From Verrucomicrobia bacterium LW23 (lineage in GTDB: Bacteria; Verrucomicrobiota; Verrucomicrobiia; Methylacidiphilales; UBA1321), in NCBI GenBank assembly GCA_003054695.1, contig QAZA01000045.1, positions 496,001 to 560,000 on the forward strand: a stretch of DNA of 64,000 nucleotides, read 5' to 3'. Below are positions 6,082 to 52,954 of this stretch, piece by piece (positions within the stretch are counted from its first letter, which is position 1; each line of letters opens with the position of its first letter). The notes beneath the pieces were generated by a model that was not told the DNA's origin, ran no database searches, and worked only from the letters and a program-made list of their open reading frames with translations. The position numbers and the translations under genes are program-made.

Positions 6082-6082
6082 A

Positions 6083-6244
6083 GCCCAATTATCGGAATAA
6101 ACCGGTACATTGGCGGGACGCTTTTGAGCGAGGGCGGCGTTGAGTCTTCGGTCATGCATTTTTCAAATGCACTCCCTTAGCCTCGCCTTGCCCTCATCTC
6201 AAAATCGCCTCCACCCATGTACCGGTTTATTCCGACAATTGGTC
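6083..6244. mobile_element. 162-bp fold-back MITE, copy 1
   Basis: The terminal inverted repeats are about 28 bp; the right end is the complement of GACCAATTGTCGGAATAAAC and continues CGGTACAT, and the left end has two mismatches. TAA flanks both sides (6080-6082 and 6245-6247), consistent with a 3-bp target duplication. The interior is itself an imperfect inverted repeat with the tip TGCATTTTTCAAATGCA. It differs from the copy at 45321 at five positions out of 162. No transposase is encoded, so it would have to move in trans. Short reading frames across it are not genes. Confidence 0.85.
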
Positions 6245-6330
6245 TAAGTGGCGTTCATCACAAATTTCAATTCAGGTATAGACAGGCCGATGAGGGAACG
6301 TCCAGTTCAAGATATCAACTGGTAACAAGC

Positions 6331-41457: not shown

Positions 41458-42771
41458 CTAGGCCAGCAGGGTTTGCTTTTCCAGGCCTAGTTTGACGAAG
41501 GTGTCGTGGACGTACTGGAAGTGGCGGTCGGGGCTGCAGAGTTCGTCGATTTGCTCGGGGGTGAAGACGCTTGTAACCTTCTCATTCTGTTTGAGATAGA
41601 CGGGAAGCTGCTCGGTGCCTCGCCAGCAGGCCATGGCGCAGGATTGGACGGCTTCGTAGGCGTCGCGGCGGGCGAGGCCGGCGTCGGTGAGGGCCAGGAG
41701 GAGTGTCTGGGAGAAGATGAGGCCTTTGGAGCGGTCCAGGTTGGCCTTCATGTTCTCGGGGTAGACGATCTGATGGGCTACCATGTCGGTGAGTTTCACC
41801 AGCATGTAGTCCAGGAGCGTGGTGCTGTCGGGGAAGATGATGCGTTCGACGGAGCTGTGGGAGATGTCGCGCTCGTGCCACAGGGGGACGTTTTCGAGGG
41901 CGGCGACGGCGTTGCCGCGGATGACGCGGGCCAGGCCCGAGAGGCGCTCGCCGAGGATGGGGTTGCGCTTGTGGGGCATGGCGCTGCTGCCTTTTTGGCC
42001 GGCGGCGAAGTATTCTTCGACTTCAAGGACTTCGGTGCGCTGGAGGTGGCGGAACTCGGTGGCCCAGCGGTCAATGCTGGTGGCGATGAGCGCGAGGGTG
42101 GTCATGAAGTGCGCATGTCTGTCGCGCTGAATGATTTGCGTGCTGAGGGCGGCGGGCTCAAGGCCGAGCTTGCGGCAGACAAAGTCTTCCACGCGCGGGT
42201 CCAGGTGGGCGTGGGTGCCGACGGCGCCGCTGAGTTTGCCGACGGCGATGTGGCGGCGGGCTTCGACGAGGCGTTCTTCGGCACGGCGAAACTCGTCGTA
42301 CATGAGGGCGAGTTTGAGGCCGTAGGTGATGGGCTCGGCGTGGATGCCGTGGCTGCGGCCCATCATGGGGGTGAACTTGTGCTCGCGGGCGCGTACGGCG
42401 ACAGCTTCGCGCAGCGCGGCCAGGTCCTTCAGCAGAAGGTCCGCACTGGCAACGAGTTGCAGGGCGATGGTGGTGTCGAGCAGATCGCTGGAGGTGAGGC
42501 CGCGGTGGATGTGGCGACCGGCGGGGCCGACGTGGACCGCGACTTCTTCGAGAAACGCGAGTACGTCGTGCTGCGTACGTTTCTCATTCTCATGCACTTC
42601 CGCGATGCGATACGTGGCTTTGGCGCGGATTTCCCTGGCGTCTTCGGCGGGGATCTGGCCGAGTTGGGCCATGCCTTCGCAGGCCAGAATTTCGATTTCG
42701 AGCCAGTGGTTGAGCTTGGCTTCTTCCGTCCAGAGTGCCCGCATAGCGGCGCGCGAGTAGCGTTCGATCAT
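41458..42771 (-). CDS. purB: Adenylosuccinate lyase
   Basis: The 437-residue fumarase/aspartase-superfamily enzyme catalyses two steps of purine synthesis (SAICAR to AICAR and adenylosuccinate to AMP). Signature GSSAMPHKRNPILGERLSG is present with the flexible loop Ser; TSSDLLDTTIALQL and GRSHGIHAEPITYG are the other two conserved regions. Length is normal. The ATG at 42771 starts the typical N-terminal MIERYSRAAMRALW. It is upstream of scpA and nth on the same strand, separated by the triple repeat. Confidence 0.95.
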   Translation of the reverse strand: MIERYSRAAMRALWTEEAKLNHWLEIEILACEGMAQLGQIPAEDAREIRAKATYRIAEVHENEKRTQHDVLAFLEEVAVHVGPAGRHIHRGLTSSDLLDTTIALQLVASADLLLKDLAALREAVAVRAREHKFTPMMGRSHGIHAEPITYGLKLALMYDEFRRAEERLVEARRHIAVGKLSGAVGTHAHLDPRVEDFVCRKLGLEPAALSTQIIQRDRHAHFMTTLALIATSIDRWATEFRHLQRTEVLEVEEYFAAGQKGSSAMPHKRNPILGERLSGLARVIRGNAVAALENVPLWHERDISHSSVERIIFPDSTTLLDYMLVKLTDMVAHQIVYPENMKANLDRSKGLIFSQTLLLALTDAGLARRDAYEAVQSCAMACWRGTEQLPVYLKQNEKVTSVFTPEQIDELCSPDRHFQYVHDTFVKLGLEKQTLLA

Positions 42772-42854
42772 GAGGCGCGCATGTTAGCAAACGCACCCGA
42801 CCGACGCAACGCGCAACGTGGCAACGCGACGGCAACGTGACGTTGCATCCCTTT

Positions 42855-42886
42855 GCTGACGGCCTTGTGGGGGCCGTCGCTGGGGA
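42855..42886. repeat. GCTGACGGCC hairpin repeat (copy 2)
   Basis: GACGGCC and GGCCGTC pair around TTGTGGG, within the same flanks (GCT before, GCTGGGGA after) as at 24091. It sits between the Nif11-like gene and purB. Confidence 0.5.
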
Positions 42887-42945
42887 GGGGGCGACTCCAG
42901 TCTTTACTTCCGGAGCCGCCTTACAACCGCCTTGTGCGGAATGAC

Positions 42946-43218
42946 TTAGACCGGGAAGTCGCTGAGCTTGTCGCTGCCGCCGGCTACGGCTTCCAGCTCT
43001 TTGTCGGAGAGCTTGCCTTCGGTGGAGGCGGCGGGGAGTACCATGCAAAGGCTGGTGGGGGACTCCTGGACGACGTTGAGGCTGACGGAAGCGGGGATGC
43101 GCAGGCCGAACTGGCGCTCAATGACGGCGCGGGGGTTGGCGATAAAGGCTTCGCGAAATTCGGGGTTGCTGGCGGCAAGCTCAACGATTTCGGCTTCGAT
43201 TTCTTTGCGTGTTTTCAT
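42946..43218 (-). CDS. Nif11/NHLP-type leader peptide, putative RiPP precursor
   Basis: The 90-residue product fits the nitrile hydratase leader peptide/Nif11-like pattern of RiPP precursors: KTRKEIEAEIVELAASNPEF (helical start), FREAFIANPRAVIERQFGL, IPASVSLNVVQESP, LCMVLPA, then LSDKELEAVAGG. The double glycine at 80-81 is the site where such leaders are usually cleaved by a peptidase-transporter. The remaining core would be only SDKLSDFPV, without Cys. No cyclase, dehydratase, radical SAM or C39 transporter gene lies in the window, so modification and export, if any, would act in trans. It is a monocistronic gene between purB and the M24 gene. It might instead be a free-standing signal or a relic. 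Confidence 0.82.
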   Translation of the reverse strand: MKTRKEIEAEIVELAASNPEFREAFIANPRAVIERQFGLRIPASVSLNVVQESPTSLCMVLPAASTEGKLSDKELEAVAGGSDKLSDFPV

Positions 43219-43780: not shown

Positions 43781-44908
43781 ATGAAAAAAGCCCGGATGAT
43801 GTACGGCGCCAGCGACGCTGACGCGGATCTGCTCTACTCCATGCGTTTTTTTGTTCCGGACCCGGTGTTGTGGTGGCAGAAAGGGGGGAAAACCAACGCG
43901 GTGTTTAGCCAGCTGGAGATCGACCGCGCGCGCAAGACGGCGCGGGTGGACCGGGTGTGGAGCTTTGAGGAATTTTTGCCCAAGGGCACCAAGGATCGCA
44001 GTGCCGAGGCGCTGGCGGCCACGGTGGCGCGCTCCCGCAAGCTGAAGAAGATTGAGGTGCCGCGCCACTTCCCCATCAGCCTGGTGCGCGCGCTGGAGAA
44101 GGCGGGCGCGGAGGTGAAGGTGGCGAAGGCGGGGTTCTTTCCCGAGCGGGAGCTGAAGAGCGAGGAGGAGATCGCGTATATCCAACAGGCGCAGGAGCTT
44201 GCGCAGGCGGGTATGCGTCGCGCGTGGCAGGTGCTGCGTGAGTCCGAGCCCGGCGCCGCGGTGGACGGCAATGGCGGCCCGCGCGTGCTGCAGTGGGGCG
44301 GGGCGGATCTGACCTCGCAGCGTTTGCGCGGGGAGATCGACGCGGAGATTATCCGTCAGGGCGGCCTGCCCGCCGGCACTATTGTGGCGTGCGCGGATCA
44401 GGCGTGTGATCCGCACGAGCGCGGCAGCGGCCCGCTTTTTGCGGATAGCGCGATTATTCTGGATATCTTCCCCCGCGTGCAGGCCACGGGTTATTTTGGC
44501 GATCTCACCCGTACCGTCGTGCGCGGCAAGGCCAGTGACGAGCTGCACAGGCTTTACAATACTGTCAAGGAGGGTAAGGCATGGGTGATGGGCCAGGTAA
44601 AAGCCGGCGTCCACGGCAATGAGCTGCATGTGCAACTGACGCAACGATTTACGGACGCGGGCTGGCCGACGGAGCAGCGCGATGGCCGCTGGGTCGGCTT
44701 CTTCCACGGCACCGGGCACTCGCTAGGGCTCGAGATCCACGAGGCGCCCCGGTTTTCGGCCGGCAAGTTCAAGGCGGGCCAGATCATGACGATCGAGCCC
44801 GGCCTCTACTTTCCGGGCATAGGCGGCGTGCGCATTGAGGACCTGGTGGTGATTACCGAGTCCGGCGTGCGCAACCTGACGGACTTGCCAGAGGTGTTGG
44901 AGCTGTAA
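43781..44908 (+). CDS. M24 family metallopeptidase (Xaa-Pro aminopeptidase-like)
   Basis: The 375-residue product has an N-terminal creatinase-like domain and a C-terminal pita-bread fold. Metal ligands are visible: Asp in ILDIFPRV and FGDLTRTVV, His in FFHGTGHSLGLEIHE, Glu in MTIEPGLYFPG and Glu in VRIEDLVVIT. It probably removes N-terminal residues before proline in cytoplasmic peptides. The ATG at 43781 follows a pyrimidine-rich leader. It does not form an operon with the following small gene, which is on the other strand. Confidence 0.9.
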   Translation: MKKARMMYGASDADADLLYSMRFFVPDPVLWWQKGGKTNAVFSQLEIDRARKTARVDRVWSFEEFLPKGTKDRSAEALAATVARSRKLKKIEVPRHFPISLVRALEKAGAEVKVAKAGFFPERELKSEEEIAYIQQAQELAQAGMRRAWQVLRESEPGAAVDGNGGPRVLQWGGADLTSQRLRGEIDAEIIRQGGLPAGTIVACADQACDPHERGSGPLFADSAIILDIFPRVQATGYFGDLTRTVVRGKASDELHRLYNTVKEGKAWVMGQVKAGVHGNELHVQLTQRFTDAGWPTEQRDGRWVGFFHGTGHSLGLEIHEAPRFSAGKFKAGQIMTIEPGLYFPGIGGVRIEDLVVITESGVRNLTDLPEVLEL

Positions 44909-45204: not shown

Positions 45205-45320
45205 TGTCGTACTTCCTGTATGTGTTATTGGACGTTGGACCGATGGATGTTTGCCACCGGGGGATAACGGGGCCCGGGGGGTTCTGCGTGGATGTGTGCT
45301 GCTGCCAGGCGCCGGTATTA

Positions 45321-45482
45321 GACCAATTGTCGGAATAAACCGGTACATTGGCGGGACGCTTTTGAGCGGGGGCGGCGTTGAGTCTTCGGTCATGCATTTT
45401 TCAAATGCACTCCCTCAGCCTCGCCTTGCCCTCATCTCAAAATCGCCTCCACCAATGTACCGGTTTATTCCGACAATTGGTC
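45321..45482. mobile_element. 162-bp fold-back MITE, copy 2
   Basis: Perfect 28-bp terminal inverted repeats beginning GACCAATTGTCGG and ending with their complement. TTA flanks both ends (45318-45320 and 45483-45485), a 3-bp target duplication of TNA form. The inside folds on itself with the tip TGCATTTTTCAAATGCA. It is 97% identical to copy 1 at 6083. No open frame belongs to it. Confidence 0.88.
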
Positions 45483-45544
45483 TTAGGCGGCGATCGGCGA
45501 TTGTGTACCAGTTAATATAGCACACTTCGGCAAATCACAAAAAA

Positions 45545-51766: not shown

Positions 51767-52954
51767 CTAAGCGGCGGCCTCGGCCGCTTCCGCCTCGCAG
51801 AGGATGCCGGCGTCCCAGTCTTTCCACACGGGCTCCAGGCCCAGGGTGCGGAGTTTGCGGGCGATTTCGGCGGGGGTGCGGTCGTCGGAGATGTGGAACT
51901 GCTCGGTGGCGCTCAGCTCGGGGGCGCCGTCGCGGGTTTCCTCTTCGGTAAGGGCGATGTGCCGGCCTTTTTGGGTGCGGTGCAGGGCGTCCTTGCCGGC
52001 GCCTGTGTAGCCTCCCGGCTCGGTGTGGCTGCCGGCGCTCATCAGGGTAATGCCCAGGGGCATCAGGCCGTCGCGCAGCGGCGCGGGCTCGCGCGTGGAG
52101 AGGACGAGGCCGGCCTGGGGAAAGCAGATGCGCAGGGCGGCAATGAGCTGCACCATCTCCTTGTCAGGCAACAGGTAACGGGGCTCAAACTCCCCCGCGG
52201 CGGGGCGCATGCGGGGCAGGGAGATGGTGACCTGCGCCTTCCAACAGTGCTTCAGCAGCCACTCCGTGTGCGCCGCCACGGCCATCGCTTCGTCGCGCCA
52301 CGGGGCCAGGCCAAACAGCGCGCCGATGCCCAGGCGGCGGAACCCGGCGGCGTACGCGCGCTCCGGGCAGGCCATGCGCCACAGAAAATCCCGCTTGGGC
52401 CCGGCGACGTGCAGCTCCGCGTAGGGCTCGGGCTGGTAGGTCTCCTGATACACGACGAGGCCTTCCGCGCCGGCCTCCACCATGGGGAGGTAGTCCTCGG
52501 TCTCCATCGGCGCCACCTCCAGGGAGATGCCTGGGATGAACGGACGCAGTCGCGCCACACAGTCCGCCAGGTAGTTGCGAGAGACAAATTTGGGGTGCTC
52601 CCCGGCGACGAGCAGGATGTTGCGGAAGCCCTGCGCCGCCAGGTGCCGCGCCTCGGCCTCCACCTGATCGAGCGCGAGCGTGACGCGCAGGATCGGATTG
52701 TCGCGCGAGAAGCCGCAGTACTTGCACACGTTAATGCACTCGTTGGAGAGATAGAGCGGTGCAAACAGCCGCATCGTACGCCCAAAGTGCTGCCGCGTTA
52801 CGACTTGCGCCTCCCGCGCCATCGCCTCCAGCTCGCGCGGGGATTTCGGCTCCAGCATCCGGGCAAAACGCTGCATCAGCGGGCTGCGATACAGCCCGCC
52901 CGCGCTATAGTGCCCGCTGTGGAGAGATGCCGAGAATGCGTCCGCGAATGTCAT
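51767..52954 (-). CDS. thiH: 2-iminoacetate synthase
   Basis: The 395-residue radical SAM enzyme cleaves tyrosine to dehydroglycine for the ThiG reaction. The cluster cysteines are CINVCKYCGF (Cys73, Cys77, Cys80). NILLVAGEHPKFVS, EVAPMETEDY, GLVVYQETYQP and SLPRMRPAAGEF are typical of ThiH. A thiH instead of thiO suggests an anaerobic or facultative lifestyle. It converges with the fur-type gene and has its own promoter region upstream. Confidence 0.94.
   Translation of the reverse strand: MTFADAFSASLHSGHYSAGGLYRSPLMQRFARMLEPKSPRELEAMAREAQVVTRQHFGRTMRLFAPLYLSNECINVCKYCGFSRDNPILRVTLALDQVEAEARHLAAQGFRNILLVAGEHPKFVSRNYLADCVARLRPFIPGISLEVAPMETEDYLPMVEAGAEGLVVYQETYQPEPYAELHVAGPKRDFLWRMACPERAYAAGFRRLGIGALFGLAPWRDEAMAVAAHTEWLLKHCWKAQVTISLPRMRPAAGEFEPRYLLPDKEMVQLIAALRICFPQAGLVLSTREPAPLRDGLMPLGITLMSAGSHTEPGGYTGAGKDALHRTQKGRHIALTEEETRDGAPELSATEQFHISDDRTPAEIARKLRTLGLEPVWKDWDAGILCEAEAAEAAA

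Follow-up and report, generated by a model that had tools for sequence, protein, structure and literature searches.

An NHLP precursor with a nine-residue core in Verrucomicrobia bacterium LW23, probably exported by an NHLM system encoded in trans

The window analyzed here, a 64,000-nucleotide stretch of contig QAZA01000045.1 (positions 496,001 to 560,000) from Verrucomicrobia bacterium LW23, encodes a 90-residue peptide that is a genuine NHLP, not a Nif11 peptide. We consider it probable that this precursor is cleaved at its Gly-Gly and exported by an NHLM system encoded in trans. An NHLP, a C39 exporter, and an NHLM adaptor that exceeds its cut-off each occur once in the genome, in three separate places. 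In the proposed route, the trans-encoded NHLM export machinery would recognize the folded 81-residue leader; its C39 peptidase-ABC protein (ABC1) would cut after Gly80-Gly81, and ABC1, together with ABC2 and an HlyD-type adaptor, would export SDKLSDFPV, either as such or after modification. We infer that these components act on the precursor, that cleavage takes place at the Gly-Gly, and that the product is secreted. The features of the window are as follows.

42946..43218, minus strand: NHLP precursor gene, 90 codons plus stop (TIGR03793 at 81.7 bits, above 50.9; coding score)
42976..43218, minus strand: NHLP leader, residues 1 to 81, nitrile-hydratase-alpha-like (profile match over residues 3 to 81)
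42976..42981, minus strand: Gly80-Gly81, the expected C39 cleavage site (predicted from LSDKELEAVAGG, aligned with relatives)
42949..42975, minus strand: core peptide SDKLSDFPV, 9 residues (translation; coding score of +0.63 for the core codons)
41458-42771, minus strand: purB (named by eye from the sequence)
43781-44908, plus strand: aminopeptidase-P-like gene (named by eye from the sequence)
near 51767-52954, minus strand: the window's sole radical SAM-type ORF, with a ThiH/HydG-type motif (by eye)

The precursor ORF runs from ATG to TAA, and the ORF list and translation give 90 amino acids ending in LSDKELEAVAGG plus SDKLSDFPV, exactly as in a preliminary description of this DNA that had reported the gene and the nine residues behind the double glycine. 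Codon usage in this frame is native (+0.74 bits per codon, compared with at most +0.15 in the other five frames; the training set was five neighboring genes). TIGR03793 matches residues 3 to 81 along the whole profile (positions 1 to 77 of 77) with an E value of 2.4e-23, so the profile search that the description had proposed returned a significant NHLP match. The leader had been called NHLP/Nif11, and only the first half of that name survives: TIGR03798 gives 14.6 bits against a cut-off of 32.3, and PF07862 was unreported up to E = 1. Because the Nif11 model scores less than half its cut-off, the name Nif11 does not apply to this precursor. The other models that match it, those for nitrile hydratase alpha and related proteins, score lower, and the match to TIGR01323 is weak.

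By sequence, the top structures are the NHLP leaders 8tb1 and 9cjx (PDB), followed by nitrile hydratases. The leader is without the metal-binding CxxCSC stretch of nitrile hydratase, and the whole precursor contains one Cys. Its L(X)4L motif consists of Leu70 and Leu75, residue numbers identical to those in MprE7, where these leucines are required for modification by the YcaO enzyme (PMC12455567), and the closing Gly-Gly is present within LSDKELEAVAGG (residues 70 to 81). An AlphaFold model built from 13 sequences is of modest confidence (mean pLDDT, 66.8), with helices within residues 4 to 37 and values below 50 in the C-terminal part. A whole-genome search returned this precursor as the only NHLP. 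A degenerate DNA pattern for LxxExL..V.GG matched the precursor and one spurious site in 6.6 Mb; the latter, considered as a second GG-leader peptide, is a 152-amino-acid ORF without leader features and was rejected.

NHLP cores are typically hypervariable and rich in Cys, Ser, and Thr; this one has two Ser, no Cys, and no Thr. The earlier argument that a core without Cys speaks against lanthionine or thiazole formation stands, but Ser dehydration or oxazoline formation would be chemically possible, and the enzyme families for these were not found. No coding signal was detected in the 174 bases 3' of the stop, where each of the three frames has a negative score. These frames give no indication of a longer core that was lost by frameshift or truncation, and the nine residues therefore show no sign of being what is left of one.

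Of the GG-delimited cores in the NHLPs collected, SDKLSDFPV is the shortest, the others having 10, 14, and about 17 to 50 residues. The contention that there is no precedent for so short a core is not supported: a Defluviitaleaceae NHLP surrounded by four radical SAM enzymes has a 10-residue core, an NHLP of Nostoc UHCC 0926 has 14 residues, Paenibacillus NHLPs above the TIGR03793 cut-off have only a short tail without GG, and a six-residue engineered core on an NHLP leader was processed by its YcaO enzyme (PMC12455567). The NHLP core-length distribution thus reaches down to nine residues. The Paenibacillus peptides, together with the stable fold of NHLPs (PDB 8tb1; PMC12455567), would also fit a precursor that is never cleaved, in which the nitrile-hydratase-like fold functions on its own, as a small protein or scaffold, with the nine residues as a mere tail. 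We regard this as improbable, given the canonical ELSDEELEAVAGG-type cleavage motif in the precursor and the NHLM exporter with a C39 domain that the genome also encodes.

The NHLP gene stands alone between purB and the aminopeptidase-P-like gene. None of the ORFs of the window is recognizable as a C39, LanM, or YcaO gene or, more generally, as encoding a transporter or RiPP enzyme, and neither Rfam families nor tRNAs were found there. The report of no exporter nearby holds for the neighborhood but does not extend to the genome, in which NHLM export genes lie on other contigs. The window also contains dispersed sequences. A hairpin-bearing short repeat (gacggccttgtgggggccgtc) lies at about 42819-42895, just downstream of the NHLP gene, and at least 8 similar pieces (82 to 89%) occur elsewhere on the contigs examined. 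A partly self-complementary element of about 167 bases, which looks MITE-type, is found at 45318-45486 and 6082-6248, with several copies, about 95 to 98% identical, on the contigs examined.

The export genes lie elsewhere, the ABC proteins being encoded as a pair.

Contig C39 (a contig label), 442,978-448,202: NHLM ABC1 and ABC2 pair, on a contig other than that of the precursor (profile scores)

Exactly one C39 peptidase was found in a whole-genome search, and it is part of the 778-residue NHLM ABC1, which scores 862 bits with TIGR03796, just over the cut-off of 853. In the alignment, the Cys, His, and Asp catalytic positions of its C39 domain are intact. NHLM ABC2 directly follows ABC1 and scores 659 bits with TIGR03797, below the cut-off of 709, and an NHLM HlyD stands alone on contig C11 (TIGR03794, 185.7 bits; cut-off, 156.2). 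Thus, ABC1, ABC2, and HlyD are all present in the genome of the precursor, ABC2 being somewhat sub-cut-off, and the suggestion to look for a C39 transporter elsewhere was borne out. Several points weigh against export in trans: ABC1 passes its cut-off only narrowly and ABC2 falls short of its own, the HlyD is only about 20 to 25% identical to the HlyDs compared, and the precursor, the ABC pair, and the HlyD are on three contigs and therefore show no linkage.

The distribution of these genes across the phylum bears on the same question. Of 388 genomes, 7 contain NHLPs and 10 contain an ABC1 that scores at least 830 bits (the next score is 560). Six of the seven NHLP genomes also have ABC1 (Fisher P = 3e-10, uncorrected for kinship, with two pairs congeneric). 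The other four of the ten ABC1 genomes yielded no NHLP; ABC1 can therefore act on different substrates, which counts against the pairing. The phylum relatives include Kiritimatiellae and Victivallis, and among the compared sequences those nearest to the leader and to ABC1 both come from Kiritimatiellae STD1_38: the precursor is 42% and 41% identical to its two NHLPs (45% in the best segment), and ABC1 is 43% identical to its ABC1. Haft et al. (2010; PMC2887384) reported a stronger correlation of NHLPs with the TIGR03794, TIGR03796, and TIGR03797 transport families than with modification enzymes of any kind, with some NHLPs lying at a distance from their enzymes and some occurring in species that lack TOMM or lanthionine enzymes. 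Based on the co-occurrence within the phylum, the shared STD1_38 relatives, and these published correlations, we consider trans-encoded export the best explanation.

Modification enzymes are a separate matter. No YcaO cyclodehydratase was found in the genome, with five control genomes positive, which speaks against a TOMM, and no LANC_like match was found, with a positive control, which together with the Cys-free core speaks against a lanthipeptide. Lant_dehydr_N, the family sought as a sign of a class I lanthipeptide dehydratase or PEARL scaffold, had no match in the genome, but the control genomes gave no match either. A motif-based listing of radical SAM ORFs covered parts of three contigs (about 1.76 Mb of the 6.61-Mb genome), and the sequence screened contains one RiPP-type enzyme, a GrrM/OscB-family protein encoded on the HlyD contig.

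C11:314,790-316,028 (= L135:14790-16028): GrrM/OscB-family radical SAM enzyme (TIGR04261 at 437 bits; cut-off, 310)

The precursor could have been modified by an unlinked maturase before export, and this enzyme, of the triceptide type, is one candidate: its profile score is above the cut-off, and no glycine-rich GrrA-like precursor is evident beside its gene. Known OscB cross-links, however, join an aromatic residue to an Asn or Asp two residues on (PMC11002830); the core has no aromatic-X-Asn/Asp motif, only F-P-V, and so does not fit a triceptide. In addition, the enzyme and precursor genes are unlinked, and the screen covered only part of the genome. As the core is without the OscB motif and the enzyme has no glycine-rich partner beside it, we do not pair the two, and we give modification in trans little credence. 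Enzymes of the lanthionine and azole types were thus not found in the genome, whereas a radical SAM enzyme exists, unlinked and with its motif lacking in the core. The idea of an orphan served by distant genes is accordingly supported for export, through the NHLM genes on other contigs, but not for modification, for which no enzyme was identified. It is possible, if doubtful, that the maturation enzymes have been dispensed with altogether and that the NHLP leader directs the secretion of a short nonapeptide without modifications, for instance a signal, with the NHLM exporter as a plain peptide-export route.

The same scatter of genes can be read as decay. No NHLP was found in 61 other genomes of the order, the genus is represented by this one genome, and a single-sequence scan for close relatives of the precursor found none. 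Because of this isolation within the order and genus, we take seriously the alternative that the gene is a relic, left over from a RiPP cluster that has been lost, its leader still readable, its enzymes gone, and its core shortened. A single-copy precursor with unlinked enzymes and scattered export genes, the absence of LANC_like and YcaO from the genome, and a core that is the shortest GG-delimited one among the relatives seen would all be expected of such a relic. However, the leader still scores 81.7 bits in an intact frame with native codon usage, the downstream sequence holds no remnant of a longer core, and the exporter has been kept with intact catalytic positions. We therefore judge a relic unlikely and favor export of the cleaved peptide by the trans-encoded NHLM system. 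A genome that keeps one NHLP and one NHLM export set, and in which azole and lanthionine enzymes were not found, is a clean system in which to ask about the export of short unmodified peptides. It also illustrates that neighborhood searches alone would label such a precursor an orphan, though its likely exporter is in the genome.

Several of the compared loci have features of their own. Kiritimatiellae STD1_38 (C6:222001-242000; L034/L038) contains a polytheonamide-like proteusin cluster with two NHLPs, one with an Asn-rich core, a PoyD epimerase (547 bits), three TIGR03975 C-methyltransferases, and a LanM-like protein. A Paenibacillus cellulosilyticus plasmid (L151:4755-6234) encodes five tandem NHLP-like peptides without GG; the two scanned exceed the TIGR03793 cut-off, and four of the five end in VRK(Y/F)xWx. 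The array adjoins a gene for a 319-amino-acid protein that contains a DDxxD-like motif and, by eye, looks similar to an isoprenoid synthase. An NHLM ABC1 relative (L056:9106-11349) has a C39 domain without the catalytic Cys (ESAEGAAV, not ..ECGAA). Four proteins encoded at L061:11284-15663, near NHLM transporter genes, appear by eye to have a Nif11-like start and an LEGVVGGK-like GG motif, after which come RTX-like glycine/aspartate repeats. Short peptides near NHLM ABC1/HlyD genes (L057:9896-10084, L058:16486-16722, and L061:15690-15968) have an acidic LxxL-type motif ending in AAG or similar, tails of about 10 to 20 residues, and no NCBIfam match.

The Defluviitaleaceae NHLP (L041:9962-10243) is likewise over the TIGR03793 cut-off (55 bits) and has a GG followed by a core of 10 residues, but that core, GCSLSIFRMC, has two Cys, and its gene is surrounded by the radical SAM enzymes noted above. 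The STD1_38 NHLPs, which have the closest leaders and come with the closest ABC1 among those compared, have cores of 25 and 50 residues and belong to a polytheonamide-like cluster. On pTM2 of Tistrella mobilis (L146), the leader is 45% identical and none of the genes in the 16 kb shown is annotated as a modification gene, whereas there are three precursors, with a core of 30 residues. With the NHLPs of TIGR03793 as a family (PMC2887384), the precursor has in common its leader sequence, the leader length of 81, the GG, the similarity to nitrile hydratase, and the co-occurrence with TIGR03794, TIGR03796, and TIGR03797; it differs in that its core has 9 residues (published average, 26) and that neither enzymes nor a transporter are linked to it. 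We conclude that it is an ordinary member of the NHLP family, though an unusually short and scattered one.
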